This document shows positions 7,064 to 35,260 of a DNA stretch of 39,078 nucleotides, piece after piece. Position numbers and translations under genes: made by a program. The stretch is from assembly GCF_000455125.1 (NCBI RefSeq), contig NZ_AUWR01000024.1, positions 1 to 39,078 on the forward strand. Direction: 5' to 3'. Each line of letters starts with the position of its first letter. Positions within the stretch are counted from its first letter, which is position 1. Source of the stretch: Mycobacterium sp. UM_WGJ. Its GTDB lineage: Bacteria > Actinomycetota > Actinomycetes > Mycobacteriales > Mycobacteriaceae. Under the pieces are notes generated by a model. That model did not search any database. It was given only the letters and a program-made list of their open reading frames with translations, and was not told where the DNA came from.

Positions 7064-8326
7064 CTATGCCTGCGCCAGCTGCTTCTCGGCGTACAGCCGC
7101 GCCCACTCGGCCCGCGGCCGGATCGACACATCGACATCGGTCGCCGTCGCCCGCAACGCCCCCACCGTCGCCTGCTCGCGCGGTGTCTTCGCGAACGGAT
7201 CCCAGCCGAAGAACCGGCAGGAGTTCTCCCAGGTGATCTTGTTGATGTCGGAGTCGTCGGCGCCGGCAGCCTCCAGCTCGGCGAGCACCTGCTCGGGGGC
7301 GTCCGGCCAGAAGCAGTCCGAGTGCGGGTAGTCGCACTCCCAGGCGATGATGTCGATGCCGATCTCGTGGCGCAGCTTCAACGACGTCTTGTCGGTGACG
7401 TAGCAGGCCAGCGAGTGCTCGCGGAACACCTCGGACGGCAGCTTGTCGCCGAAGTCGCGGCGCAGCCACTTCTGGTTGGTGTAGTGCCGGTCGCTGCGAT
7501 CCAGGTAGAACGGGATCCAGCCGATACCGCCCTCGGAGAACGCGAATTTCAGGTCGGGATAGTTGCGCATCGCCGGACCCCACAACAGGTCCTGAGCGCA
7601 CATCGCCGAGATCTGGGTGGCCAGAATGATCAGGTTGTCGATCGGGGCGTTGGGGGCCATGCTGATCGCCCCGAAACCGGTGCCGATGTGCAGACACATC
7701 ACCACACCGGTCTCCGAGAGGGTGCGGAACACCGGGCCCCAGTATTCGTCGTCGTGGTAGCTGGGTAGGCCCTCCAGGTGCGGCAGTTCGGGCATAGTGA
7801 CCGCCCGACAGCCCTTGGCCGCCACCCGGCGGATCTCGGCGCACATCGCCTCGGGGCTCCAGGTCGGCAGGATCGCGATCGGGATGAACCGGCCGGGATA
7901 GGAGCCGGCCCACTCGTCGATGTGCCAGTCGTTGTAGGCCGACACCATCACCAGCGTGACGTCCTCGCGAGTCATGTTGAGGTGACGTGCGGAGAATCCG
8001 GTGAAGGTCGGGAAGCACATCGAGGCGAGGATGCCGTTCCGGTTCATGTCGCGGACCCGCTCGTGCACGTCGTAAACGCCCGGGCGCATCTCGGCGAAGC
8101 CGGCCGGGTCGCGGCCCCACTCCTGCGCGGGCCACGACACCACCGCGTTCAGTCCGCTGACGCCCTGCGGTCGGCCCTGATACATCCACTGGTCGACGCC
8201 CTTTTCGTCGGTGACGACGATCGGCGCCTCCGCCTTGTACTTGGCCGGGACGTGGTTGAGGAACATGTCGGGCGGCTCCACCACATGGTCGTCGATGCTG
8301 ACCAGGATCAAGTCGTCTGTCTTCAT
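7064..8326 (-). CDS. Amidohydrolase-2 family metal-dependent enzyme
   Basis: This is a 420-residue TIM-barrel protein of the amidohydrolase-2 (ACMS-decarboxylase-like) family. The first metal motif is DDHVVEPP, with His14 and Glu17, a DxHxxE variant of the usual HxH. Later ligands fit MCLHIGTGF and the terminal ECDYPHSD. Family members are decarboxylases, hydratases or hydrolases that use one divalent metal, often on ring or ring-cleavage products. I chose the ATG at 8326; the open frame upstream runs into the divergent AraC gene. Only 25 bases separate the two divergent starts, which suggests that the AraC protein controls this gene and the SDR downstream. Confidence 0.82.
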   Translation of the reverse strand: MKTDDLILVSIDDHVVEPPDMFLNHVPAKYKAEAPIVVTDEKGVDQWMYQGRPQGVSGLNAVVSWPAQEWGRDPAGFAEMRPGVYDVHERVRDMNRNGILASMCFPTFTGFSARHLNMTREDVTLVMVSAYNDWHIDEWAGSYPGRFIPIAILPTWSPEAMCAEIRRVAAKGCRAVTMPELPHLEGLPSYHDDEYWGPVFRTLSETGVVMCLHIGTGFGAISMAPNAPIDNLIILATQISAMCAQDLLWGPAMRNYPDLKFAFSEGGIGWIPFYLDRSDRHYTNQKWLRRDFGDKLPSEVFREHSLACYVTDKTSLKLRHEIGIDIIAWECDYPHSDCFWPDAPEQVLAELEAAGADDSDINKITWENSCRFFGWDPFAKTPREQATVGALRATATDVDVSIRPRAEWARLYAEKQLAQA

Positions 8327-8351
8327 ACCTCTACTAGTACCCTGGGAAACC

Positions 8352-9170
8352 GTGACCGTCTCTGCGCGTTCGGCCATAGAGTTTGCCGAACCGGCCAACA
8401 TCGACATGCGCCGCGGTGGTCGCGCGCGGGCCGGCAGCTACCTCTACGAGGGGCAGCAGCTCATCACCGGCTGGCACTCCCACGACATGCACCAGATCGA
8501 GTACGCCGTCGGCGGCGTGGTCGAGGTCGAGACCGCCGCAGCGCACTATCTGCTACCGCCGCAGCAGGCGGCCTGGATTCCCGCCGGCCTGGAGCACCAG
8601 GCCGTTATGCGCGCGGAGGTGCGCACGGTGGCGGTGATGTTCGACCCCCAATTGGTCGCGCACGCCGGAGACCGGGCCCGCATCCTGACCGTCTCGCCGC
8701 TGATCCGGGAGATGATGTTGCATTCACTGCGCTGGTCCATCGAACGGATCGACGGTGATGTGATCTCTGATGACTTCTTCCGCACCCTGGGACACCTGGT
8801 CTCCGACGCCCTGGACCACGAGGCACCGCTGAGCCTGCCCACCTCGGATCATCCGATCGTCGGCGCGGCAATGGTCCACACCAAGAAACACCTGGCGTCG
8901 GTGACCGCGGCCGACGTGTGCCGCGCGGTCGCGGTGTCCGAACGCACCCTGCGCCGTCAGTTCGAAGCGGTGATCGGCATGTCCTGGCGCACCTACCTGC
9001 TACACGCCCGAATGCTGCAGGCGATGGCCCTGCTGGCCGCCCCCGATCAGGGGGTGCAGCAGACCGCTACGGCCGTCGGCTTCGAAAGCCTGTCCGCGTT
9101 CACCCGGGCATTCACCAAGTTCGCCGGCGAGGCGCCGTCGAACTATCACCGCCGGATCACGGCGGTTTAG
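8352..9170 (+). CDS. AraC-family transcriptional regulator
   Basis: This is a 272-residue regulator with an N-terminal cupin sensor (WHSHDMHQIEYAVGG, IPAGLEHQ) and a C-terminal double helix-turn-helix. The latter includes SERTLRRQFEAVIGMSWRTY and the signature VGFESLSAFTRAFTKFAGEAP. The sensor probably binds a small hydrophobic or aromatic effector. I chose the GTG at 8352 because the cupin begins soon after. There is no strong ribosome site in the 25-base gap, so the mRNA may be leaderless or nearly so. It is divergent from the amidohydrolase gene and is the obvious candidate to regulate it. Its last codons fall within the first copy of the repeat at 9162-9264. Confidence 0.85.
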   Translation: MTVSARSAIEFAEPANIDMRRGGRARAGSYLYEGQQLITGWHSHDMHQIEYAVGGVVEVETAAAHYLLPPQQAAWIPAGLEHQAVMRAEVRTVAVMFDPQLVAHAGDRARILTVSPLIREMMLHSLRWSIERIDGDVISDDFFRTLGHLVSDALDHEAPLSLPTSDHPIVGAAMVHTKKHLASVTAADVCRAVAVSERTLRRQFEAVIGMSWRTYLLHARMLQAMALLAAPDQGVQQTATAVGFESLSAFTRAFTKFAGEAPSNYHRRITAV

Positions 9171-9264
9171 CGAGGTTCGACGCAGGAGAGCCGAAGCTGG
9201 AACCGCCAAATGAACCGAGCGGTTTAGCGAGGTTCGACGCAGGAGAGCCGAAGCTGGAACCGCC
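9162..9264. repeat. Two-copy tandem repeat with inverted ends (57-base period)
   Basis: A 46-base unit occurs at 9162-9207 and again, identical, at 9219-9264, separated by 11 bases. Each unit starts GCGGTT and ends AACCGC, so its ends are inverted repeats and single strands could fold. The AraC stop codon lies inside copy one. The size and position after a gene recall mycobacterial interspersed repeats, but I cannot assign it to a known class. Bases 9265-9285 hold nothing recognisable. Confidence 0.8.
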
Positions 9265-9285
9265 GCATGAACACTGCTTCCTGAA

Positions 9286-10464
9286 CTACGACGTCTTTAC
9301 GGCCGGCGCCGCGTAATTCGGCTTGCCAAGGCCCAGCACGTACTGGGCGATCATGTTGCGGAACACCTCCAGGGTGCCGCCGTAGATGCCGACCAAGGGT
9401 GCGAACCGGAAAACATAATCCGACGCCCCATCGTCGATAGCACCGTCGGTGTCGATCGGCAACGCCGATGCACTTCCGAGCAGGTCCATCAGGTCCGGCG
9501 ACACGTCGCGCATCGCCTGCGCCAGTGCCACCCGTCCGAAAATCGACGGAGCCGACAGCGACGACTCCACCCGAGCGGCCGCCCGCCCGAGCCGGTAGGC
9601 CACCGAACGATCCGCGATACTCCCCGACCTCCCGACCACCTCGCCCGCTTTGTCGACGGCGACCGCCATGAAGTTCGCCTGGTGCATCATGATCGAGACG
9701 TCCTGCAGTCCATCGGGATTGGCGTCCACTGCACCGTGCTCGACGTTGAGAGGTTCGCGCAGCACCGTCCAGCCCCCGTTGACCTCGCCGAGGCGGTACT
9801 TGTCGTCGACGCGGACGTCGCTGTAGTAGACGATGTTGGTGCGGTCGCCGTCGACGGTGCGCAGGCCCTGGATCTCGATGTCAGGAGTGTTCAGCGGCAC
9901 CAGGAACATGGTGAGGCTCTTGTGCTTCCGCGCGTCCGGATCGGTGTTGGTGATCAGGAAGACGTATTGGCAGTTGTGGGCCCCGGTGGTGAACATCTTG
10001 GAGCCGTTAATGATCCAGTTGTCGCCGTCACGCACCGCGCGGGTCTTGCAGGTCGCGATATCGGAGCCGCCTTCGGGCTCGGTGTAGCCCAGGCAGAGTC
10101 GGACGTGGCCGCTGAAGACCCCGGGCAGGATTTCCTCGCACAGCTCGGGCGAGCCGAAGGAGGCAACGGAGCGGGCCACCATCGCCGTGGTTCCCCACGT
10201 CACCCAGGGCACGTGGGCGCGGCGCTTCTCCAGCTCCCAGATGCGTCGGCGCACGCGGGGGAAGCCGCCGTCTGCCTCGGTCTTCCACTCCGATTCCAGG
10301 TAACCCGCGGCACCGAGCGCCAGGTGGACGCCCTCGTCGAAGTTGTCCCCGGTCTCGCGGTCTCGGCGTTTGACGTCCTCGGTCACGTGGGTGGCCAGGA
10401 ATGCGCGCACCTCGTCGCGGAAAGCCAGGTCACCGTCGGTCAGTTGCGGTTGTGCGAAGTCCAT
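9286..10464 (-). CDS. Acyl-CoA dehydrogenase (FadE-type, probable alpha subunit)
   Basis: This is a 392-residue protein with the full acyl-CoA dehydrogenase fold. FAD-binding motifs are LGYTEPEGGSDIA and SKMFTTGAHNCQY, and the C-terminus carries YGGTLEVFRNMIAQ...LGLG. The Glu found at YEGT in medium-chain enzymes is Gly here (YGGT), so the catalytic base must sit elsewhere. Mycobacterial steroid FadE pairs form alpha2-beta2 enzymes from adjacent genes. The second dehydrogenase gene lies 13 bases upstream, so I infer such a pair. ATG at 10464 is the start; the open frame upstream is a shadow. Confidence 0.88.
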   Translation of the reverse strand: MDFAQPQLTDGDLAFRDEVRAFLATHVTEDVKRRDRETGDNFDEGVHLALGAAGYLESEWKTEADGGFPRVRRRIWELEKRRAHVPWVTWGTTAMVARSVASFGSPELCEEILPGVFSGHVRLCLGYTEPEGGSDIATCKTRAVRDGDNWIINGSKMFTTGAHNCQYVFLITNTDPDARKHKSLTMFLVPLNTPDIEIQGLRTVDGDRTNIVYYSDVRVDDKYRLGEVNGGWTVLREPLNVEHGAVDANPDGLQDVSIMMHQANFMAVAVDKAGEVVGRSGSIADRSVAYRLGRAAARVESSLSAPSIFGRVALAQAMRDVSPDLMDLLGSASALPIDTDGAIDDGASDYVFRFAPLVGIYGGTLEVFRNMIAQYVLGLGKPNYAAPAVKTS

Positions 10465-27090: not shown

Positions 27091-28636
27091 GTCCACGCCG
27101 CGGGCACTCACCGTCGACGCCGTGGTGCGGTCGCGGGCAGCCGCCAACCCGAGCACACCGATGGTGATCGATCCGATCGGCCGGCTCAGCTACGGCGACC
27201 TCGACACGTCGTCGCGGGAGCTGGCGGCGGTCCTCGTGCAGGCCGGGGTCGGCAAAGGTACTCGGGTGGGACTGATCATGCCCAACCGGGTCGACTGGGT
27301 TCGCATCGCGGTCGCGGTCACCCGGATCGGGGCGGTGCTGGTGCCGCTGAGCACACTGTTGACCCCACCGGAACTGCGGGCTCAGTTGCGGATCGCGGCC
27401 GTGCAGATCCTGATCAGCGTCGAAGAGTTCCGGGACCGCCGCTACCTGGACCATGTACCCGCGGAATCGCTCCCCACAGAGGATCTTCCTGCGCTGCAGC
27501 ATGTCTGGTCCACGCAGGCTCTGGCATCAGCCACCGCCGGGCCGGGACCCCGCAAGATCGTCGACGCCTTGGCTGCGACCGTGGTTCCCGCCGACCCGAT
27601 GACGATCATCTTCACCTCCGGCAGCAGCGGGCCGCCCAAGGGGGTGCTGCATTCGCACGGCAGCGCCTTGGGCGCAGTCGGATCCGGGCTGGCGGCCCGC
27701 TGCATCGGACCGGACACCCGCTTGTATCTGCCGATGCCGTTCTTCTGGGTCGGTGGCTTCGGCGGCGGGGTGCTCTCGGCACTTTTGGCCGGAGCGGCCC
27801 TGATCACCGAGGAGATCCCGAAACCCGAGACCACCTTGGGCCTGCTGGAATCCCAGCGGGTCACCCTGTTTCGGGGATGGCCGGACCAGGCCGCGGCACT
27901 GGCACAGCACGCCACTGATGCCGACCTGTCGGCCTTGCGGCCCGGCAGCCTGGAGGCATTGCTGCCGCCGGCATTGCGCGCCGAGCCCGGCGCGCGGGCC
28001 AATCTGTTCGGAATGACCGAGACGTTCGGCCCGTATTGCGGTTATCCCGCCGACACCGACCTGCCGCGTTCAGCGTGGGGCAGCTGCGGTAAACCCTTCG
28101 CGGGCATGGAGGTTCGGGTCGTCGACGCCGACACCGGCGTTCCGGTACCCGCCGATCGGGTCGGGATGATCCAGCTGCGCGGGCCGCACACGTTGCGGGG
28201 CATCTGGGGGCGCTCTCGAGAAGAGGTCTTTACCGTCGACGGCTTCTACCCGACTGGCGACCTGGGCCGCCTCGATCCCGACGGGTTCCTGTTCTACCAC
28301 GGCAGATCCGACGACATGTTCAAAGTCAGCGGCGCCACGGTCTATCCGAGCGAAGTCGAGAAGGCGCTGCGCAGCATCTCCGGCGTCGCGACCGCGGTCG
28401 TCACCAGCGTGCCCGACGGTGAACGGAACCGCGTGGGAGCGATGGTCGCCGGCGATGGGCTGACCGTCGAAGGACTGCGCGACCGGTGTCGTGATCTGGT
28501 GAGCTCGTTCAAGGTACCGACGGTGTGGCTGGTGGTGCCCGCAGCCGATGCCATCCCGCATGGGCCGACCGGCAAAGCAGACAAACGACGAGTGCGAGAC
28601 ATGCTGGCAAGCCCAGTCCACGCCGACCCGGCGTGA
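27083..28636 (+). CDS. AMP-forming acyl-CoA synthetase (third of three)
   Basis: This is a 517-residue FadD-type enzyme. The phosphate loop is FTSGSSGPPKG at residues 177-187. The adenine region is NLFGMTETFGPY, the hinge is DPDGFLFYHGRSDDMFKVSG, and the lid Lys is in PHGPTGKADKRR. It is most similar in layout to the frameshifted gene just upstream (both keep FFW-(I/V)-GG after the phosphate loop), so the two probably arose by duplication. It should activate a carboxylic acid to the CoA ester. It overlaps the preceding reading frame by 8 bases and is followed after 22 bases by the SDR gene. Confidence 0.9.
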   Translation: MPESTPRALTVDAVVRSRAAANPSTPMVIDPIGRLSYGDLDTSSRELAAVLVQAGVGKGTRVGLIMPNRVDWVRIAVAVTRIGAVLVPLSTLLTPPELRAQLRIAAVQILISVEEFRDRRYLDHVPAESLPTEDLPALQHVWSTQALASATAGPGPRKIVDALAATVVPADPMTIIFTSGSSGPPKGVLHSHGSALGAVGSGLAARCIGPDTRLYLPMPFFWVGGFGGGVLSALLAGAALITEEIPKPETTLGLLESQRVTLFRGWPDQAAALAQHATDADLSALRPGSLEALLPPALRAEPGARANLFGMTETFGPYCGYPADTDLPRSAWGSCGKPFAGMEVRVVDADTGVPVPADRVGMIQLRGPHTLRGIWGRSREEVFTVDGFYPTGDLGRLDPDGFLFYHGRSDDMFKVSGATVYPSEVEKALRSISGVATAVVTSVPDGERNRVGAMVAGDGLTVEGLRDRCRDLVSSFKVPTVWLVVPAADAIPHGPTGKADKRRVRDMLASPVHADPA

Positions 28637-28658: not shown

Positions 28659-29480
28659 ATGACGGGCCGATTGGCCGACAAGGTGGCATTCGTCACCGGT
28701 GCGGCACGGGGACAGGGACGCGCCCATGCGGTACGGATGGCCGGCGAGGGTGCCGACATCATCGCGGTGGACGTGGCCGGGAAGCTGCCCGACTGCGTAC
28801 CCTACAACCCGGCAAGCCCGGAGGATCTGGCCGAAACCGTCCGACTGGTACAGGCCACCGGGCAGCGCATGGTGTCCTCGATAGTCGACACCCGTGACTA
28901 CGACGGCCTGCGTGAGGCAGTCGCTGATGGGGTGGCCCAACTCGGACGCCTCGACATCATCGTCGCCAACGCCGGCGTTGCTGCCCCACAGGCCTGGGAT
29001 GCGATCTCCCCGGAGAACTTTCGCGACGTCATGGACATCAATGTGACCGGCACCTGGAATACCGTGATGGCCGGTGCCCCGCACATCATCGCCGGGAAGC
29101 GCGGCGGCTCGATCATCTTGATCAGTTCGGCCGCCGGCATCAAGATGCAGCCGTTCATGGTGCACTACACGGCCAGCAAGCACGCCGTCACCGGAATGGC
29201 CCGAGCCTTTGCCGCCGAGTTGGGCAAGCACGCGATTCGCGTCAACAGCGTGCACCCCGGCCCGGTCAACACCGATATGGGCACCGGCGACATGGTCAGC
29301 GCGCTGGGTCAGGCGATGGAGACCAATCCTCAGCTGTCGCAGATGCTCACGCCCTTCCTGCCCACCTGGGTGGCCGAACCGGAAGACATCGCCGGCACCG
29401 TGTGCTGGCTGGCCAGTACCGACTCGCACCTGGTCACCGCCGCCGCGATTCCGGTGGACCAGGGCTGCACACAGTACTGA
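28659..29480 (+). CDS. Mycofactocin-coupled SDR
   Basis: This is a 273-residue SDR with the glycine motif GAARGQG, INVTGTWNT and the active site Ser in LISSAAG followed by YTASK. Between strands two and three it has an extra segment (PYNPASPEDLAETVRLVQAT). This is the hallmark of mycofactocin-coupled SDRs, whose tightly held NAD is re-oxidised by the redox peptide mycofactocin rather than exchanged. It probably oxidises an alcohol of the pathway substrate. ATG at 28659 is preceded by GGAGGG at 28647-28652. It is the last gene of the plus-strand operon. Bases 29481-29590 downstream show no clear terminator. Confidence 0.88.
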   Translation: MTGRLADKVAFVTGAARGQGRAHAVRMAGEGADIIAVDVAGKLPDCVPYNPASPEDLAETVRLVQATGQRMVSSIVDTRDYDGLREAVADGVAQLGRLDIIVANAGVAAPQAWDAISPENFRDVMDINVTGTWNTVMAGAPHIIAGKRGGSIILISSAAGIKMQPFMVHYTASKHAVTGMARAFAAELGKHAIRVNSVHPGPVNTDMGTGDMVSALGQAMETNPQLSQMLTPFLPTWVAEPEDIAGTVCWLASTDSHLVTAAAIPVDQGCTQY

Positions 29481-29590
29481 GCGAGACCATATTCTGGCGA
29501 TCAACACTGGATCCGATTTCACCCGGCTATGGTTGAGCGCCTGACACCGTCAGCAGCGCGGCGACGACGACAACAGAAATGAGGACGGCC

Positions 29591-29926
29591 ATGAGCCCAC
29601 TGCGGGATCGCGCCACCACGCCCCTAGTCGCGCTTGCTGTGACGTCCCTGGCGCTGATCGGACTCGCCTTACCGGCCGGCAGCCGAGCTGACCCGCTAGA
29701 CGGCTGCGGCTACGGCATGTACTTCAACACCGAGACAGATCAGTGCGAGCCCGGCGGCGTAAACCCACACCCGTTCATCGGACCTGTCGGACCGGCCGGC
29801 GTCGGTGTCGGGGGTCCCGTCGGGCCCGGCGGCGTTGTCGGCCCCGCCGGCGTCGGCCCGGCTGGCCCGGGACCGGTTGGGCCCGGCCCGGTCGGCCCCG
29901 GCCCGGCAGGACCCGGCCGGCGCTAG
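29591..29926 (+). CDS. Small secreted Gly/Pro-rich protein
   Basis: This is a 111-residue protein with a Sec-type signal peptide: basic start, a hydrophobic core (LVALAVTSLALIGLALPAG) and probable cleavage near SRADP. The mature part has a short two-cysteine motif (CGYGMYFNTETDQCEPGG) and then about 50 residues of almost only Gly, Pro, Val and Ala in a collagen-like pattern (GPVGPGPVGPGPAGPG). Small exported proteins with a Cys-YGMY-type motif occur in mycobacteria, with no known function. ATG 29591 follows GAGGA; ATG 29579 is in frame. It is convergent with the membrane operon, with 7 bases between the stops. Confidence 0.7.
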   Translation: MSPLRDRATTPLVALAVTSLALIGLALPAGSRADPLDGCGYGMYFNTETDQCEPGGVNPHPFIGPVGPAGVGVGGPVGPGGVVGPAGVGPAGPGPVGPGPVGPGPAGPGRR

Positions 29927-29933
29927 ATATGCG

Positions 29934-30317
29934 TCAGTGCGCCTGCGCAATCCGCTCATGGTGCAGGCGCACCAGCTCGCGGAAGCCGAGCCGGTGGTAC
30001 TTGGGCACGGGTTGAATGCCCCACTCGTCCTGCGCACTGGCCTTTCCGGCCGCTCCCTCCGGCGGGCCGAGTGGCGGGTAGGGATACTTGCACTCCAGCG
30101 TGTCGTCGGAGAACCGGGTCTTCAGCAGCTCGCTGCAGATCTGGGTCAGGCTCAACGTGGGGTAGCCGTAGTACACCGCCATGAAGGGCAAGGTGAACGC
30201 GCCCTCGATGACCAGCGCCACCAGACACACCAAGGTGGCGCGCTTGATCCACTTGTGCATCCGCGCGTAGTACGGGGTGGTGCCCGGCGGTAGCGCTTCG
30301 GGGGCAGAGGTTTCCAT
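29934..30317 (-). CDS. 127-residue single-pass membrane protein of the NorQD-like operon
   Basis: I do not recognise a family. The protein has a short N-terminal tail, one transmembrane helix at about residues 27-50 ([20 protein letters not shown]) and a 75-residue soluble part. Two cysteines, at 61 and 76, could form a disulfide if this part is outside the cytoplasm. There is no CxxCH haem motif, so it is not a NorC-type cytochrome despite the NorQ/NorD neighbours. The C-terminus is rich in His and Arg ([12 protein letters not shown]). It is the last gene of the operon, 15 bases after the second polytopic protein, and is probably a subunit of the same membrane complex. Confidence 0.75.
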
Positions 30318-30332
30318 CGTGGGACTCCTTTG

Positions 30333-30575
30333 TCAGTCGGAAAAGATCTCCCGGTTCACGGTGTGCAGGTACGGGATCGCCAAAAACGGTGTGATGTAGA
30401 AGATGTCGTAGAGCCACCAGCCGATCACCGGGAACACCACTCCCGCGTAACGCACATCGGCATACATGGTCATGTTGAACACGTAGAGAATCCAGATGAG
30501 CACGCCCATCCAGCAGGTCACCACCATCCACTGATGGCCCCAGCGCTTCATCTGCAAAAACCCGATCGCGGCGGC
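30333..30575. repeat. Long direct repeat, copy 1 (3' ends of paralogues B and A)
   Basis: This tract and 33646-33888 are direct repeats with about 15 mismatches over some 245 bases by eye, mostly at third codon positions, and long identical runs. The proteins differ at one of the last 80 residues, compared with about 38 differences in the preceding 132. The abrupt change suggests recent gene conversion or recombination between the two genes. Confidence 0.85.
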
Positions 30576-31034
30576 GCAGCGCATCGCGAATACCGTCAGG
30601 ATCATGCCGAACACCATGGATTTCTCACCCGGGCCGGCGGAGCCGCCGATCCACAGCTCGTTGTAGTGCCAGAAGTAGCCGGCATCGAACATGCCGCCCC
30701 AACCGACCATCAGTACCCGGTTGATCAGGGTGTGGTTGGCGACGAGATCCAGCGCCCACCCGAGGCTGTTCAGCGCCCCGTCGATCAACACCAGGTATCC
30801 GATCAGGGTGACTATCATCGGCCGCACGGCCAGACCGGCGTGCAGTGCTTGTCGTTGCAGCAGGGCACCGCGCAAGAAGATCGGCAGCCCGATGATGCCC
30901 GGCACCCACATTCCCATCAGCGCCGCGCCTGCGATCATCCAGCGGTCCGCCCGCCGCTGGGCGGCACGAGATTGGGTCTCGTGCTCCTCGATCCCGGCGA
31001 AATCCGTCGTCGAACCGGGCGGCGTCGGGCTCAT
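30333..31034 (-). CDS. Polytopic membrane protein, paralogue B
   Basis: This is a 233-residue protein of unknown family with about six transmembrane helices (roughly residues 33-55, 70-98, 105-130, 138-160, 168-190 and 196-222). Polar residues lie within or next to helices: DAGYFWHYNELW (residues 117-128), WGHQW (165-169) and YLHTVNREIFSD at the C-terminus. All are identical in paralogue A at 33646. These His, Asp and Glu residues are candidate metal ligands; this is inference. The start ATG at 31034 overlaps the stop of the 42-residue peptide by four bases. Its last 80 codons are almost identical to those of paralogue A. Confidence 0.82.
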   Translation of the reverse strand: MSPTPPGSTTDFAGIEEHETQSRAAQRRADRWMIAGAALMGMWVPGIIGLPIFLRGALLQRQALHAGLAVRPMIVTLIGYLVLIDGALNSLGWALDLVANHTLINRVLMVGWGGMFDAGYFWHYNELWIGGSAGPGEKSMVFGMILTVFAMRCAAAIGFLQMKRWGHQWMVVTCWMGVLIWILYVFNMTMYADVRYAGVVFPVIGWWLYDIFYITPFLAIPYLHTVNREIFSD

Positions 31035-31159
31035 AACTGCCACCAGCCTCGGGCGAACGACATATACAGCTGGATGCCGAACATGATCGCCAAATAGCCG
31101 TAGATGAAGATCTGAAAGACGATCAGCGCTCGCTTGCGATTGCGTTCTTGCTGGTCCAC
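31031..31159 (-). CDS. 42-residue membrane peptide between NorQ-like and paralogue B
   Basis: This is a small protein with a charged N-terminus (DQQERNRKRA) and one transmembrane helix (LIVFQIFIYGYLAIMFGIQLY), ending FARGWWQL. GTG at 31159 is preceded by AAGGAAG. It starts 17 bases after the AAA+ gene stop, and its stop overlaps the start of paralogue B by four bases, so coupled synthesis with paralogue B is likely. By size and position it may be a small subunit or assembly factor of the membrane complex. I recognise no family. Confidence 0.75.
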   Translation of the reverse strand: MDQQERNRKRALIVFQIFIYGYLAIMFGIQLYMSFARGWWQL

Positions 31160-31175
31160 TTCGCGACTTCCTTTC

Positions 31176-31970
31176 TTAGGGGCGCTCGGTCTGAGTGGTG
31201 AGCACGCTGGCGGCCACTTCACGCAAGCCGTCGTGAATTCCGCCGTCGGTGGTCAGCGGGGCCAGGATGCACGCTTCGGCGGCCTCGGGCTCGCTCGCGC
31301 CGGCGGCCACCAGTTGCGCGGCGTTGACCAGGGTGCGGGTCGACGGCGGTTCGAAGTGCAGCGCCTGGTCTGCGGTGCGCAGGGCGGTGGCGCACTGCAC
31401 CAGGCGATCAGCGATCTGCGGTTCGATACCGGTTTCGGCGACGATCACCTGCGCTTCGAGATCGGGCGCCAGGTAGTGCATGGGTAGCGTGGCGAACCGT
31501 TGCCGGAAGGACGGCTTCAGCTCCTTGAGTGAGCTGCGGTAGGCCGGATTGTAGGAGCACACCAGCATGAAGGTGTCTGGGGCCGTGATGTTTTCCCCCG
31601 CACGGTCGAGGTACAGGGTGCGACGGTGATCGGTCAGCGAGTGCAGCACCGCCAGCGAGTCATGCCGCGCCTCCACAACTTCGTCGAGGTAGCAGATCGC
31701 CCCGGACCTTACCGCTTTGGTCAGCGGCCCGTCGGTCCACACCACGTCGCCGCCGGCCACCAGGAAGCGACCCACCAGGTCCGAACTGGTCAGGTCGTCA
31801 TGGCAACTGATGGTGATCACCGGCCGGCCCAGCAGCGAGCCCATATGCTCGACGAGCCGGGTCTTACCGCAGCCGGTCGGGCCGGTGAGCATCACCGGTA
31901 TGCGGCGCCGGTACGCCTTCTCGAACAACTGCACTTCGTTGCCGTTGGCGAAGTAGACATCGCTGCTCAT
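31176..31970 (-). CDS. NorQ/CbbQ-type MoxR AAA+ ATPase
   Basis: This is a 264-residue ATPase of the CbbQ/NirQ/NorQ/GvpN group. Walker A is GPTGCGKT at residues 30-37 and Walker B is CYLDE at 93-97. A sensor Asn sits in CSYNPAY (138-144), and an arginine-finger candidate in FRQRF (155-159). These ATPases work with a VWA protein to remodel a client: NO reductase (NorQD), Rubisco (CbbQO), or, in related pairs, CO dehydrogenase. The VWA partner lies 22 bases upstream. No known client gene is present, so the paralogous membrane proteins are the likely client. ATG at 31970 has GAGGAG upstream. Confidence 0.92.
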   Translation of the reverse strand: MSSDVYFANGNEVQLFEKAYRRRIPVMLTGPTGCGKTRLVEHMGSLLGRPVITISCHDDLTSSDLVGRFLVAGGDVVWTDGPLTKAVRSGAICYLDEVVEARHDSLAVLHSLTDHRRTLYLDRAGENITAPDTFMLVCSYNPAYRSSLKELKPSFRQRFATLPMHYLAPDLEAQVIVAETGIEPQIADRLVQCATALRTADQALHFEPPSTRTLVNAAQLVAAGASEPEAAEACILAPLTTDGGIHDGLREVAASVLTTQTERP

Positions 31971-31992
31971 CGGGCTCCTCGCACCTGGTCGG

Positions 31993-33429
31993 TCATGCTG
32001 CGGTCAGTTCGCGGTGTACGTGGGCCAGTACGCGCGGTAGCTCCGCGACCCGCCGAATCCGTTGGGAGCGGCGCGGTCCGAAAACCTCCGGGAGTGGATC
32101 GACCCGCACGGGCCCGACGCCGAGGTAGTACACGCATACACCGGCTTGGTCGGCTTCCTCGACGGCGTGTGCGACATCGGCCCAGGCATATCGGCCTTCG
32201 TAGCCCTCGTCGGACATCAGCCCGTCGCCGATCATGAGGAGTAGCCGCCGTTCGGACGGCTGCGCCAGCAGCCGGTTGGTCAGATGGCGCAGCGGGGCGC
32301 CCAGCCGGGTGTAGCCGCCGGTCAGCAGTCCCGAACCGCTCGGGGCCACGAACTTGCGGTCGTCGAAGTCCTTGAGGCAGTGCACTTCCACGTGGTGGCG
32401 GGTGTTACCGGTGAACGCGAAGATGCCGTGGCGCTGACGCGTGCTCGTCATCGCCGCCGAGAGCGCGTCCGCGCAGGCCAGCTCCAGTCCGAACAGTCGG
32501 CCACCGTGCACTCCCAGCGAGGAACTCGCATCGAGCAGCACCGCGGTGGTCACGTCCCGGCCTGCCGGCAGCAGCTCCCGGAAGATCCGCGGCTCGCCCG
32601 CCGCCCCGGCCAGCACGTCGAGGCGGTGGTTGACGTAGGCGTCGACGTCGAGATCGGATCCGTCGGCGAGCCGGTTGGTCATGGCACGGACGGTGTGTTG
32701 TTGAAACCACTTCCGCAGATCGACCGCCACCGGGGACGGCTCGCCTGACGATGAGCGCCGGTCGCGTTCCACCACCGCGACGTGGTCTGGCAACAGGGTG
32801 CCGGTGTGCATACTCCACTCCGGGTACGGGACGCCTGGTCGCCGGTCGCGACCGAGAAAGCGATCGTCGTCTTCGGGCCGGCTCGGCGGCGGCATGGTGG
32901 TGTTGCGAACTCCCCCGTCCCCACCCACCGGTACCGAATATGGGCGTGGGCGCCGCTTTTGGTTGCTGGACCAAGGCATGCGGCCGAGCCGGCGAACCGA
33001 GGAGGCCAACCGTCCCGGCTCGGTCCAGCCCACCGGCAGTGTCCCGGTGAGCGGATGCCCGGGCAATGGCTGCCGGGAGCGTGCCAAGGCGCTCGCCCGA
33101 TCGAACATCTCGACGGCCGGCGTCTCGGGATCGGCGGGATCGAGATCTGGCAGCACCCGCCGCAGCTCGGCCACCAGGCCGGGCCAGCGCCCGACGACCC
33201 AACCGAGGGCCACCTGCGCCTCGACGAACGTCAGGGCCGAAAGCTCCCGCGATGAGAGGTCGGCCAAACGGTACTGTGCGAGCCGCTCCTTGGAGGGTGC
33301 GCATTGCAGCGCCACTCCGCAGGTCAGCGTTCGTCTGGTCCAGCCCTGCCCTGAGGAATGAGGGGGATGGGGCACGTAGACGGTGGAAAGATTCGCACTC
33401 AGGCTGAAACTTCTTTCGGCGCCGGTCAT
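31993..33429 (-). CDS. NorD-type von Willebrand factor A protein
   Basis: This is a 478-residue protein with a C-terminal VWA domain. The MIDAS residues are DASSS (300-304), a Thr in GGYTRLG near 374 and an Asp in MIGDGLMSDEGYEG near 401. The N-terminal 280 residues are a NorD-like adaptor region with an Arg/Pro-rich linker (SSNQKRRPRPYSVPVGG). NorD/CbbO-type proteins bind the client and the AAA+ ring through their metal site. I chose the ATG at 33429. No good ribosome site precedes it, and TTG codons nearby or upstream are possible starts. The frame stays open to 33588 but there overlaps the 34-residue peptide gene. Confidence 0.88.
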   Translation of the reverse strand: MTGAERSFSLSANLSTVYVPHPPHSSGQGWTRRTLTCGVALQCAPSKERLAQYRLADLSSRELSALTFVEAQVALGWVVGRWPGLVAELRRVLPDLDPADPETPAVEMFDRASALARSRQPLPGHPLTGTLPVGWTEPGRLASSVRRLGRMPWSSNQKRRPRPYSVPVGGDGGVRNTTMPPPSRPEDDDRFLGRDRRPGVPYPEWSMHTGTLLPDHVAVVERDRRSSSGEPSPVAVDLRKWFQQHTVRAMTNRLADGSDLDVDAYVNHRLDVLAGAAGEPRIFRELLPAGRDVTTAVLLDASSSLGVHGGRLFGLELACADALSAAMTSTRQRHGIFAFTGNTRHHVEVHCLKDFDDRKFVAPSGSGLLTGGYTRLGAPLRHLTNRLLAQPSERRLLLMIGDGLMSDEGYEGRYAWADVAHAVEEADQAGVCVYYLGVGPVRVDPLPEVFGPRRSQRIRRVAELPRVLAHVHRELTAA

Positions 33430-33521
33430 CAACCGTGCGCCGTCGCGGCGTCGGTCGCTCAAGGCGACTGCCGTGAGCGCGCAGCTGGTCTCCAGCGCCA
33501 GGGGGTCCACGCCCGGCTCGG

Positions 33522-33626
33522 TCAGAAGGTTCCGATGCTGGAGAACATCCAGTACCAGAATGCGATGATCAAACACGTCCCGCCCCACGCGGCGACGTAG
33601 CGCAGAATCTCCCAGAGCCAGGCCAT
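33522..33626 (-). CDS. 34-residue membrane peptide after paralogue A
   Basis: This small frame begins MAWLWEILRYVAAWGG and continues through a hydrophobic segment to FSSIGTF. It is almost entirely one Trp-rich transmembrane helix. ATG at 33626 is preceded by AGGAAA, and it begins 19 bases after the stop of paralogue A. A 92-base space with no other obvious signal separates it from the VWA start. It parallels the 42-residue peptide that precedes paralogue B, although the two peptides are not clearly similar. It is probably a small subunit of the complex; no family recognised. Confidence 0.65.
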   Translation of the reverse strand: MAWLWEILRYVAAWGGTCLIIAFWYWMFSSIGTF

Positions 33627-33645
33627 CAGAATTTCCTATCGTTGA

Positions 33646-33888
33646 TCAGTCGGAGAAGATCTCCCGGTTGACGGTGTGCAGATACGGGATCGCCAAAAAC
33701 GGTGTGATGTAGAAGATGTCGTAGAGCCACCAGCCGATCACCGGGAACACCACACCGGCGTAGCGCACATCGGCGTACATGGTCATGTTGAACACGTAAC
33801 CGATCCAGATGAGCACGCCCATCCAGCAGGTCACCACCATCCACTGATGACCCCACCGCTTCATCTGCAGAAATCCGATCGCGGCGGC
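33646..33888. repeat. Long direct repeat, copy 2
   Basis: This is the partner of 30333-30575, in the same orientation about 3.3 kb away. Recombination between the copies would delete the 34-residue peptide, VWA, AAA+ and 42-residue peptide genes and fuse the two paralogues, so the pair is also a possible instability point. Confidence 0.85.
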
Positions 33889-34344
33889 GATTCGCATGGT
33901 GAAGACGGTGAAGATCAGCCCGATCTCCCAGCCTTTCTCGCCCGGGCCGGCGGCCCCGCCGATCCACAGCTCGTTGTAATGCCAGAAGTAGCCGGCGTCG
34001 AACATCGCGCCCCAGCCGTTGAGCAGGACACGGGCCAGCAGCGTGTGGTTGGCCACCATGTCCAGCGCCCATCCCACCGCATTGATCGCGGCGTCGATGA
34101 TGACCAGATAGCCCAGCAGCGTCACGAGCATGGGCCGAACGGCCAGTCCGTCGTGTTGAGCCTTGCGCTGCAACCAGATTCCGCGCAGAAACAGCGGGAG
34201 GCCGAAGACACCGGCCGCCGCCGTACCGATGAGCATGCCGCCACAGATCATCCAGCGGTCAGCTCGACGCTGGGCGGCCCGCGAGAGCTCCAGGTGCTCA
34301 TCGAACCCGAGGCCGTCACGCAATTGCTGCGGTGCAGTAGGCAA
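33646..34344 (-). CDS. Polytopic membrane protein, paralogue A
   Basis: This is a 232-residue membrane protein, colinear without gaps with paralogue B from residue 21 on. It is about 70 percent identical over residues 21-152 and differs at only one of the last 80 residues. It has about six transmembrane helices and the same polar motifs (DAGYFWHYNELW, WGHQW, TVNREIFSD). I chose the TTG at 34344 because GAGGGGGG lies just upstream and the resulting N-terminus matches the length of B; no ATG is available before the first helix. It is the first gene of the membrane operon, 79 bases after the TetR gene, with a palindrome in that gap. The function is unknown. Confidence 0.8.
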   Translation of the reverse strand: MPTAPQQLRDGLGFDEHLELSRAAQRRADRWMICGGMLIGTAAAGVFGLPLFLRGIWLQRKAQHDGLAVRPMLVTLLGYLVIIDAAINAVGWALDMVANHTLLARVLLNGWGAMFDAGYFWHYNELWIGGAAGPGEKGWEIGLIFTVFTMRIAAAIGFLQMKRWGHQWMVVTCWMGVLIWIGYVFNMTMYADVRYAGVVFPVIGWWLYDIFYITPFLAIPYLHTVNREIFSD

Positions 34345-34395
34345 TGACCGCCCCCCTCGCCGTTCAAGCAACGCCTACGACAGTAAGGAACTCAC

Positions 34396-34423: not shown

Positions 34424-35038
34424 TCAGCGCGTGGCGCCCAGGCCGCGCAAGGTCCTGGTCACGTAGTCCGCGACCAATTCCGGACGAGATGGCCAGTCAT
34501 GGGTCGTGATGAGCAGGGCGTAGAGGCCGAGCAGGAAGAACACCGCGCTGTTCATCGCGACGACGTCGTCGTCGATCTCGCCGCACTCCCGCGCCGCCTC
34601 GATACGCTCGGCGATCAACTCGATCAGCGGGTGATGCTCGCCATTTTCGGCAGGCGGTCGGGTCGGCGAGAAGTGCAGCGCCAAGAATTCGGTGAACAGC
34701 GGATCGCCCAGGCGTCGCTCCAGATCGATGATCAGGCGCGCGGACTCGCCCAAGATGTCCGAAAGCGCTTGGTGTCCGCCGAGGAACTTCTCGAACTGCT
34801 TGGTGATTCGTTCTTCCTCCCGGCGTTCCAACTCCAGCAGCACGTGCTCCTTGGTGGGGAAGTGAAAGAAGAATGTGCCGTGCGCGACGCCGGCGGCGGC
34901 AACGATGGCGCCGACGTCGGCTTGAGCCATCCCCGTCCGCTTGAACTCGGCGGTCGCCGCACCCAGCAGCCGCTCACGCGTCTGCAGCCGCCGGGCGTCG
35001 CGCGCCGTCATCTTCTCCGGCTTGTCCGCCACAGCCAC
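34424..35038 (-). CDS. TetR-family transcriptional regulator
   Basis: This is a 204-residue TetR protein. The helix-turn-helix is in VGAIVAAAGVAHGTFFFHFP followed by TKEHVLLELE (about residues 42-70). The C-terminal ligand domain ends LLGLYALLITTHDWPSRPEL. GTG at 35038 is used; a GTG two codons on or an ATG at codon 10 are alternatives. It lies between the Bfd-like gene and the membrane operon, and both flanks carry the same palindrome (34396-34407 and 35074-35085). Autoregulation and control of the NorQD-like operon are therefore likely. Confidence 0.88.
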   Translation of the reverse strand: MAVADKPEKMTARDARRLQTRERLLGAATAEFKRTGMAQADVGAIVAAAGVAHGTFFFHFPTKEHVLLELERREEERITKQFEKFLGGHQALSDILGESARLIIDLERRLGDPLFTEFLALHFSPTRPPAENGEHHPLIELIAERIEAARECGEIDDDVVAMNSAVFFLLGLYALLITTHDWPSRPELVADYVTRTLRGLGATR

Positions 35039-35073: not shown

Positions 35074-35085
35074 TGACTCAAGTCA
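35074..35085. promoter_or_regulatory. TetR operator candidate upstream of the TetR gene
   Basis: This is identical to the palindrome at 34396-34407. It lies 35 bases upstream of the TetR start and overlaps the last codons of the Bfd-like gene. That is a normal place for an autoregulatory operator. Confidence 0.6.
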
Positions 35086-35260
35086 GCGTTGTGGATTCCC
35101 GCAGAGTCGTCGCGATCAGCGCCCGGATGTTATTTCGGCAGCGTCCACACACCGTCCCGGCCCCGGTACGCTCGCCGACCTGCTTAGTGGTCGTGGCGCC
35201 GGCTCGCGCCGCGTCGATGACCTGCTGACTGGTCACCCCGGCGCACAGGCAGACGTACAC
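35078..35260 (-). CDS. Bacterioferritin-associated ferredoxin-like [2Fe-2S] protein
   Basis: This is a 60-residue protein with cysteines at 4, 6, 38 and 41 (CLC near the start, CGRC later). This is exactly the spacing of the Bfd [2Fe-2S] fold. The sequence between them (VTSQQVIDAARAGATTTKQV) matches the Bfd helix. Bfd proteins pass electrons, classically to bacterioferritin for iron release. No bacterioferritin gene is in the window, so it may instead serve a redox enzyme of this cluster. GTG at 35260 lies 6 bases after the CoA ligase stop, so the two are co-transcribed. Confidence 0.88.
   Translation of the reverse strand: MYVCLCAGVTSQQVIDAARAGATTTKQVGERTGAGTVCGRCRNNIRALIATTLRESTTLT

Follow-up and report, generated by a model that had tools for sequence, protein, structure and literature searches.

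A conserved mycobacterial gene cluster in which a NorQ/NorD-type ATPase pair likely serves a multi-subunit membrane complex

The window analysed here, a 39,078-nucleotide stretch (contig NZ_AUWR01000024.1, positions 1 to 39,078) of the 4.47-Mb draft genome of Mycobacterium sp. UM_WGJ, contains seven minus-strand genes at 29934-34371 which encode two paralogous polytopic membrane proteins (A and B), a third protein with one transmembrane (TM) segment (C), two peptides of 34 and 42 amino acids (aa) and an AAA+ ATPase with its VWA-domain partner. The cluster likely represents NorQD-type maturation of a multi-subunit membrane complex by a dedicated pair, because its gene order is conserved, the two pair proteins are related to NorQ and NorD, A and the VWA protein co-occur across genomes, and the AAA+ protein is the only one of NorQ type found in the genome. 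That A/B, C and the two peptides form a membrane enzyme complex, matured via a metal by this pair and placed under TetR control, is a further step for which we consider the case evenly balanced, and in which the metal and the oxidation are what we infer.

Gene arrangement and its conservation

The seven genes, in the order A, 34-aa peptide, VWA, AAA+, 42-aa peptide, B and C, are as follows.

33646..34371, minus strand: A, polytopic membrane protein, 241 aa from a TTG, start uncertain, matching no known family
33522..33626, minus strand: pepA, 34-aa single-TM peptide, probable subunit
31993..33510, minus strand: VWA protein, NorD-like C-terminal half, metal-ion-dependent adhesion site (MIDAS) DxSxS-T-D
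31176..31970, minus strand: AAA+ ATPase of the NorQ/CbbQ family, Walker A GPTGCGKT, Walker B ICYLDEVVEA, CbbQ_C domain
31031..31159, minus strand: pepB, 42-aa single-TM peptide from a GTG, probable subunit
30333..31043, minus strand: B, paralogue of A, 236 aa, 78% identity to A
29934..30317, minus strand: C, 127 aa, one TM segment, carrying a 17-residue motif

The TTG of A lies at 34371, the position 34344 given in the initial annotation of the window being another TTG, and the GTG start of the VWA gene at about 33510 was placed where homologue matches begin. Scanning of GTDB genome contigs with A gave 312 relatives, and the best 80 of these 312 loci, on which the locus counts rest, belong to Mycobacterium, Mycolicibacter, Mycolicibacterium, Aldersonia and Nocardia (Mycolicibacterium vanbaalenii and M. 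vaccae are represented in the scan), the closest named matches of A being from Mycolicibacter species at no more than 94% identity. The exact seven-gene order on one strand was found by script in 75 of the 80 loci and, with an extra AveC-linked pair adjoining it, in a 76th (L033); since the order described in the initial annotation is kept in 76 of 80 loci, the arrangement is not due to chance. In two of the other loci (L025 and L074) the contig ends inside the VWA gene, in L069 A is on the opposite strand and separated from the other genes, and in L012 A is alone. One A-like and one B-like copy were present in 77 of 82 loci.

Both small open reading frames (ORFs) look like genuine coding genes under selection, as judged from their substitution pattern: the ratio of non-synonymous to synonymous differences (pN/pS) against the window had a median of 0.21 for pepA (63 of the 75 ordered loci, full-length matches only) and likewise 0.21 for pepB (75 of 75). 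The peptides are 66-100% identical across loci and retain the motifs WE..RY..AWGG....I.FWYW.F...GTF (pepA) and RK.ALI..Q...YGYL..MF..Q.YMSF.RGWW.L (pepB). The CydX-type small subunits of cytochrome bd offer an analogy to such conserved single-TM peptides of 34-42 aa encoded within a cluster.

The AAA+/VWA pair and the membrane proteins

The AAA+ protein has the Pfam domains AAA_5 and CbbQ_C and matched NorQ of the NorQD complex over almost its full length (E 7.2e-77), with CbbQ structures ranking after NorQ (6l1q, E 6.3e-71) and midasin also scoring highly across its repeated AAA domains; by these matches it is a NorQ/CbbQ-family ATPase of the MoxR clade. The VWA protein scored below the Pfam cut-off for the VWA domain, and its residues 238-494 and 254-529 matched two NorD proteins in phmmer searches (E 2.4e-34 and 1.9e-27) in alignments that include the MIDAS residues (LLD.SSS, GYTRLGA, GDG), whose conservation across 82 sequences is 97% or more. 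Judged by its VWA domain, MIDAS and NorD-like C-terminal half, it is a NorD/CbbO-type partner, and the pair is thus of the kind that the initial annotation had proposed. Residues 1-237 had no solved relative by sequence (phmmer aligned 238-529 only), as would be expected of a new client adaptor. The only NorQ-type AAA protein found in the genome is that of the window, the other match being 23% identical (E 6.8e-5).

Among 249 genomes of the window's order, in which the searches scored first-look candidates only (at most 11 per genome for A and 5 for VWA), A was detected at E<=0.01 in 23, three of them by short marginal matches (G1152, G1034, G1041), and full-length A and a close VWA protein (E<=1e-40) occurred in the same 20 genomes. 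The initial annotation had named A/B homologues that usually occur without any AAA+/VWA pair as evidence against its own proposal, and this pattern was not seen in these genomes, where full-length A comes with the close VWA protein. Within the window's GTDB genus, 17 of the 26 genomes sampled have A, and its occurrence outside that genus is patchy: the class-wide sample gave 25 of 394 genomes (one marginal) and the phylum-wide sample 9 of 396, adding one genome from another class (G505), in whose class 2 of 249 were positive (one marginal), while the order of G242 gave 3 of 35 and the family of G035 3 of 5. No relative was found in phage records and none was confirmed in viral contigs; plasmids yielded one distant copy.

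At E<=1, neither Pfam nor NCBIfam had a match to A, B, C or pepB; pepA matched DUF3149 alone (E 0.018, below cut-off), so that no cut-off was reached by any of the membrane proteins or peptides. Thirteen diverse A proteins gave single weak matches to DUF4190, YWFCY and EBP (EXPERA/EBP, PF05241, in 1 of the 13 at E 0.21), and profile searching of PDB sequences gave one match (E 0.096). The initial annotation had suggested comparison with PmoA/B/C, NorB and AveC-like families, among others, and none of these matched A or B at E<=1: PmoA/AmoA and AmoC were negative by profile for A, B and the 13 diverse A proteins, the model used for fold comparison being of low confidence and giving no significant match to any structure; identity of A/B with NorB of the cNOR type was not supported, no Pfam family (heme-copper oxidase included) being found; and AveC_like (PF17198) had no profile match to A, B or C. 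Nor did A or B, or the diverse A proteins, match any transporter family in Pfam or NCBIfam. No characterised family matched A/B in these searches, and hence no transporter or other non-metal family of the kind that would have spoken against the initial proposal.

Six polar residues are invariant in the 13 diverse A proteins (R79, D93, N97, D125, E145, R203), D104 is kept in 12 and H109 in 11, a His occurring one place earlier in the plasmid copy L145. The motifs that the initial annotation quoted as invariant in His, Asp and Glu are present, and the acidic residues D93, D125 and E145 hold throughout; the histidines do not. Outside the main clade H131 gives way to Asp or Asn and H175 to Phe, Leu or Tyr, and L118 and L119 alone retain H232 there. 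The tail of C, which is predicted to be extracytoplasmic, has two conserved Cys and no CxxCH.

Divergent copies and neighbouring genes

Twelve copies of A outside the main loci form a divergent set, from which L123 (G288, with a marginal A) was left out, as it had no match with any window protein. Six of the 12 have a linked AAA+/VWA pair (L113-L116, L120, L138). L113, from another genus of the family, and L114-L116, from another order, have only one A gene, their order being pepA, VWA, AAA, pepB, A, C; L120 reads short C, A, VWA, AAA; and L138, from another class and 37% identical, has two small TM proteins followed by A, VWA and AAA. Because other lineages have a single A, the A/B duplication is not essential, and A together with small one-TM proteins, some resembling C and others the peptides, seems to make up the stable unit, the B duplicate being a feature of the lineage. 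A, C and the peptides can also stand together with no pair beside them, as in L121 and L122, which are units of pepA, pepB, A and C in genomes that carry a close VWA protein elsewhere. In L118, A is accompanied by small TM proteins, then an FtsH/Cdc48-type AAA protein and then a Rieske protein, in a genome that also holds L120; the different AAA type (L118:8230-10700) thus occupies the corresponding place after a distant A. L145, for which the plasmid only was examined, is a copy at 7121-9711 of an 864-kb plasmid of Mycobacterium branderi, where A is found with one small TM protein and its annotated neighbours are a Rieske domain protein, a GMC oxidoreductase and a mycofactocin-coupled short-chain dehydrogenase/reductase (SDR). 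An 82-aa protein upstream resembles, by eye, a fusion of pepA and C, and nearby are a VapC toxin-antitoxin pair and genes of oxidative catabolism. Cytochrome P450 genes occur near three divergent A loci (L115:4076-5191, L117:11069-12430, L138:7156-8391).

Three neighbours of the cluster in the window were followed across loci.

34424..35038, minus strand: TetR-family regulator, upstream of A
28659..29480, plus strand: mycofactocin-coupled SDR oxidoreductase, TIGR03971 above cut-off, start placed by inference in an ORF that opens at 28548; a recurrent neighbour, not core
35078-35260: Bfd-like protein

A TetR relative was found within each of the 75 ordered loci (E<=1e-3, a match anywhere in the locus being accepted), usually on the upstream side of A, which is its place in the window, or else in the interval from A to pepA. 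The intercalated TetR-like gene between A and the 34-aa peptide was seen in 24 of the 80 loci (between L014 and L081), is 52-58% identical to that of the window and is the sole TetR match in 10 of the 24.

An SDR at least 41% identical to that of the window was present in 24 of the 80 loci, eight of them from Mycolicibacter, a count made without a background rate. All six SDRs checked in NCBIfam passed the TIGR03971 cut-off; the gene adjoins an A copy in the window, L012 and L121 and lies within 8 kb of one in L021, L069 and L033. Such a neighbour is consistent with a hydroxylase whose product is an alcohol but is no proof of one. The Bfd-like protein, which the initial annotation had linked to the cluster through its [2Fe-2S] character, was found in 5 of the 8 Mycolicibacter loci, at none of the remaining loci among the 80, and also at the separate copy L121. 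As it is absent from all but 5 of the 80 loci it is not core, and it was rejected as a core electron donor. The earlier suggestion of a pathway through CoA-ligase and Bfd-like genes is weak, the mycofactocin-coupled SDR being the more recurrent neighbour.

Between the SDR gene and C (29579-29926) lies a small exported-looking protein with a repetitive tail rich in Gly, Pro and Val, which is present in part of the Mycolicibacter loci and matched no Pfam family. By eye, the window as a whole (1-39078) is densely packed with genes of CoA-dependent catabolism: its ORFs include several for enoyl-CoA hydratases, acyl-CoA dehydrogenases, CoA ligases and amidohydrolases, along with regulators of the IclR, AraC and TetR types.

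Related systems, alternative explanations and proposed function

Among the closest known systems is norCBQDEF, the cluster of cytochrome-c nitric oxide reductase, whose gene content is given in PMC13036017 and which likewise combines a NorQ-family AAA+ protein, a NorD-type VWA half with MIDAS, a membrane client and small membrane proteins in one cluster. However, inspection of the window ORFs by eye showed no NorB or NorC (no search for NorB was made in the rest of the genome), the N-terminal half of the window VWA protein is unmatched to NorD by sequence, C has no CxxCH and A/B have no Pfam family. CbbQ/CbbO, the Rubisco activase, shares the CbbQ_C domain and the AAA+ similarity, whereas its client is soluble and no Rubisco gene was seen by eye among the window ORFs. 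PmoA/B/C and AmoA/B/C are also multi-subunit membrane complexes, with possible hydrophobic substrates in common, but A/B have no profile match to them and no cupredoxin-like subunit was seen. To our knowledge, copper membrane monooxygenases mature without NorQD.

Mycobacterial AveC_like loci resemble the cluster in placing a polytopic membrane protein beside a NorQ-type AAA and a VWA protein, with possible common short motifs, and differ in that the membrane protein is of another family by profile and is one large protein rather than A/B/C with peptides. AveC_like (PF17198) proteins were found in 27 of 61 genomes, that of the window included, and a NorQ-type AAA protein 47-51% identical to the window's adjoins 14 of 30 AveC loci (1.5-kb flanks). 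In 6 of 11 longer AveC loci both AAA and VWA are present, the VWA being 30-32% identical to the window's; those without a linked pair are four with a short AveC form and the window genome's own copy. AveC_like genes linked to NorQ-type AAA and VWA were seen at L033:13452-16748 and in L177, L178, L180, L184, L185 and L186, and in L033 the A-type cluster and the AveC-linked system are side by side. The AveC-linked pairs are possibly a second NorQD-client system, and the presence of NorQD-type pairs beside two kinds of mycobacterial polytopic membrane protein, be these related to each other or not, strengthens the view that the membrane proteins are the client.

The same observation gives rise to the main rival explanation, namely that A and C are a split, distant relative of the AveC-like proteins, the family of the avermectin spirocyclase/dehydratase, and would act on lipids or polyketides without redox chemistry, as a cyclase, dehydratase or isomerase which the pair remodels or reactivates with no insertion of a redox metal. 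AveC is described in PMC13303154 as an enzyme of spiroketalisation and dehydration, which counts in favour of this explanation, as do the AveC_like loci that carry NorQ-type AAA, alone or with VWA, and the adjoining systems of L033. In hhalign comparisons (the trimmed AveC alignment omitting L166, for which a wrong frame had been taken) the C motif IEG..LP..Y.YP aligned to AveC with P 0.0083 and the D...N motif in TM2-TM3 of A with P 0.0094-0.0099. Both alignments had a probability of 4-5%, however, and another stretch of AveC fitted A just as well (P 0.0091), so that two placements compete. In a control with 17675 ORFs, AveC proteins were three of the five best sub-threshold matches of the C profile, at E>=1.4 and mutually homologous, and the A profile listed none. 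The likeness of A and C to AveC in short motifs is suggestive at best, and the lack of a PF17198 match for A/B and the AveC genes with no linked pair (the short forms and the window genome's copy) weigh against this explanation, which we regard as unlikely.

Less probable still is a transporter or a lipid-handling channel, made up of A/B/C and the peptides, which the pair would help to assemble and which would not be catalytic: the five have the look of membrane proteins throughout, no known enzyme family matched any of them and mycobacterial lipid-catabolic clusters often contain uptake systems, but no transporter family was matched and the NorQ-family pairs known to us act on enzymes or gas vesicles, not on transporters. 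That A/B/C are only a membrane platform for the pair, the real client being a soluble oxygenase elsewhere (P450, Rieske or other), is the most improbable of the three, judged from the divergent copies: in L121 and L122 A, C and the peptides have no pair beside them, and L145 has A with a single small TM protein, P450 genes near L115, L117 and L138 and the Rieske protein annotated near the M. branderi plasmid copy notwithstanding.

For the membrane enzyme complex itself, we propose that A and B (A alone in other lineages), C and the two one-TM peptides may form one complex, and that the cytoplasmic pair would insert or activate a metal in A/B. In the NorQD model outlined in PMC13036017, a finger of the VWA protein occupies the pore of NorQ, and twisting driven by ATP opens up the client so that iron can enter; by analogy, the ATPase hexamer may turn the VWA protein, for which the MIDAS and an N-terminal adaptor domain of its own would provide the docking, and so open A/B for metal. 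The TetR protein would control the cluster. The enzyme might then oxidise, probably by hydroxylation, a hydrophobic substrate to an alcohol, which the neighbouring mycofactocin-coupled dehydrogenase could pass on to CoA-ligase steps.

Several points weigh against this reading. The related CbbQO pair has an activase function (PMC13036017), so that metal insertion is not implied by the pair alone. No His is fully invariant in the diverse A proteins, and the metal site in A/B is putative, a carboxylate-rich one being possible. Both AlphaFold2 models are too weak for use and yielded no fold assignment, the better reaching a predicted local distance difference test score (pLDDT) of 66 and a predicted template modelling score (pTM) of 0.53 with no significant Foldseek match. 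The conserved core holds no electron-transfer partner, and the catabolic neighbours vary between genera. The 20 genomes with both A and VWA are related and hence are not 20 independent events, the other 6 of the 12 divergent copies (L117, L118, L119, L121, L122, L145) have no linked pair, and the genomes of L117 and L119 (G012 and G069) carry only a distant VWA protein (E 1.1e-28 and 3.8e-23).

No description of the cluster was found among the titles and abstract openings listed for literature on NorQ/NorD/MoxR-type pairs or on mycobacterial AveC. A broader reading, which we put forward tentatively and hold to be doubtful as a whole, is that of a new class of membrane metalloenzyme: A/B, C and two micropeptides with a carboxylate-rich site (D93, D125, E145 and perhaps H109) and their own NorQD-type loader would oxidise lipophilic substrates in mycobacteria and feed mycofactocin-dependent dehydrogenases, AveC-like proteins with NorQD pairs being a second arm of the same design. 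A occurs in 17 of the 26 sampled genomes of the genus, yet the membrane proteins of its cluster reach no Pfam or NCBIfam cut-off. If they are an enzyme complex, NorQ/NorD-type machines, for which few classes of client are known, would gain a further one, in which a membrane client is conserved along with two micropeptides. The cluster would then make it possible to test in a defined way how general metal insertion by these machines is, and a recurrent part of mycobacterial metabolism would be given a function.

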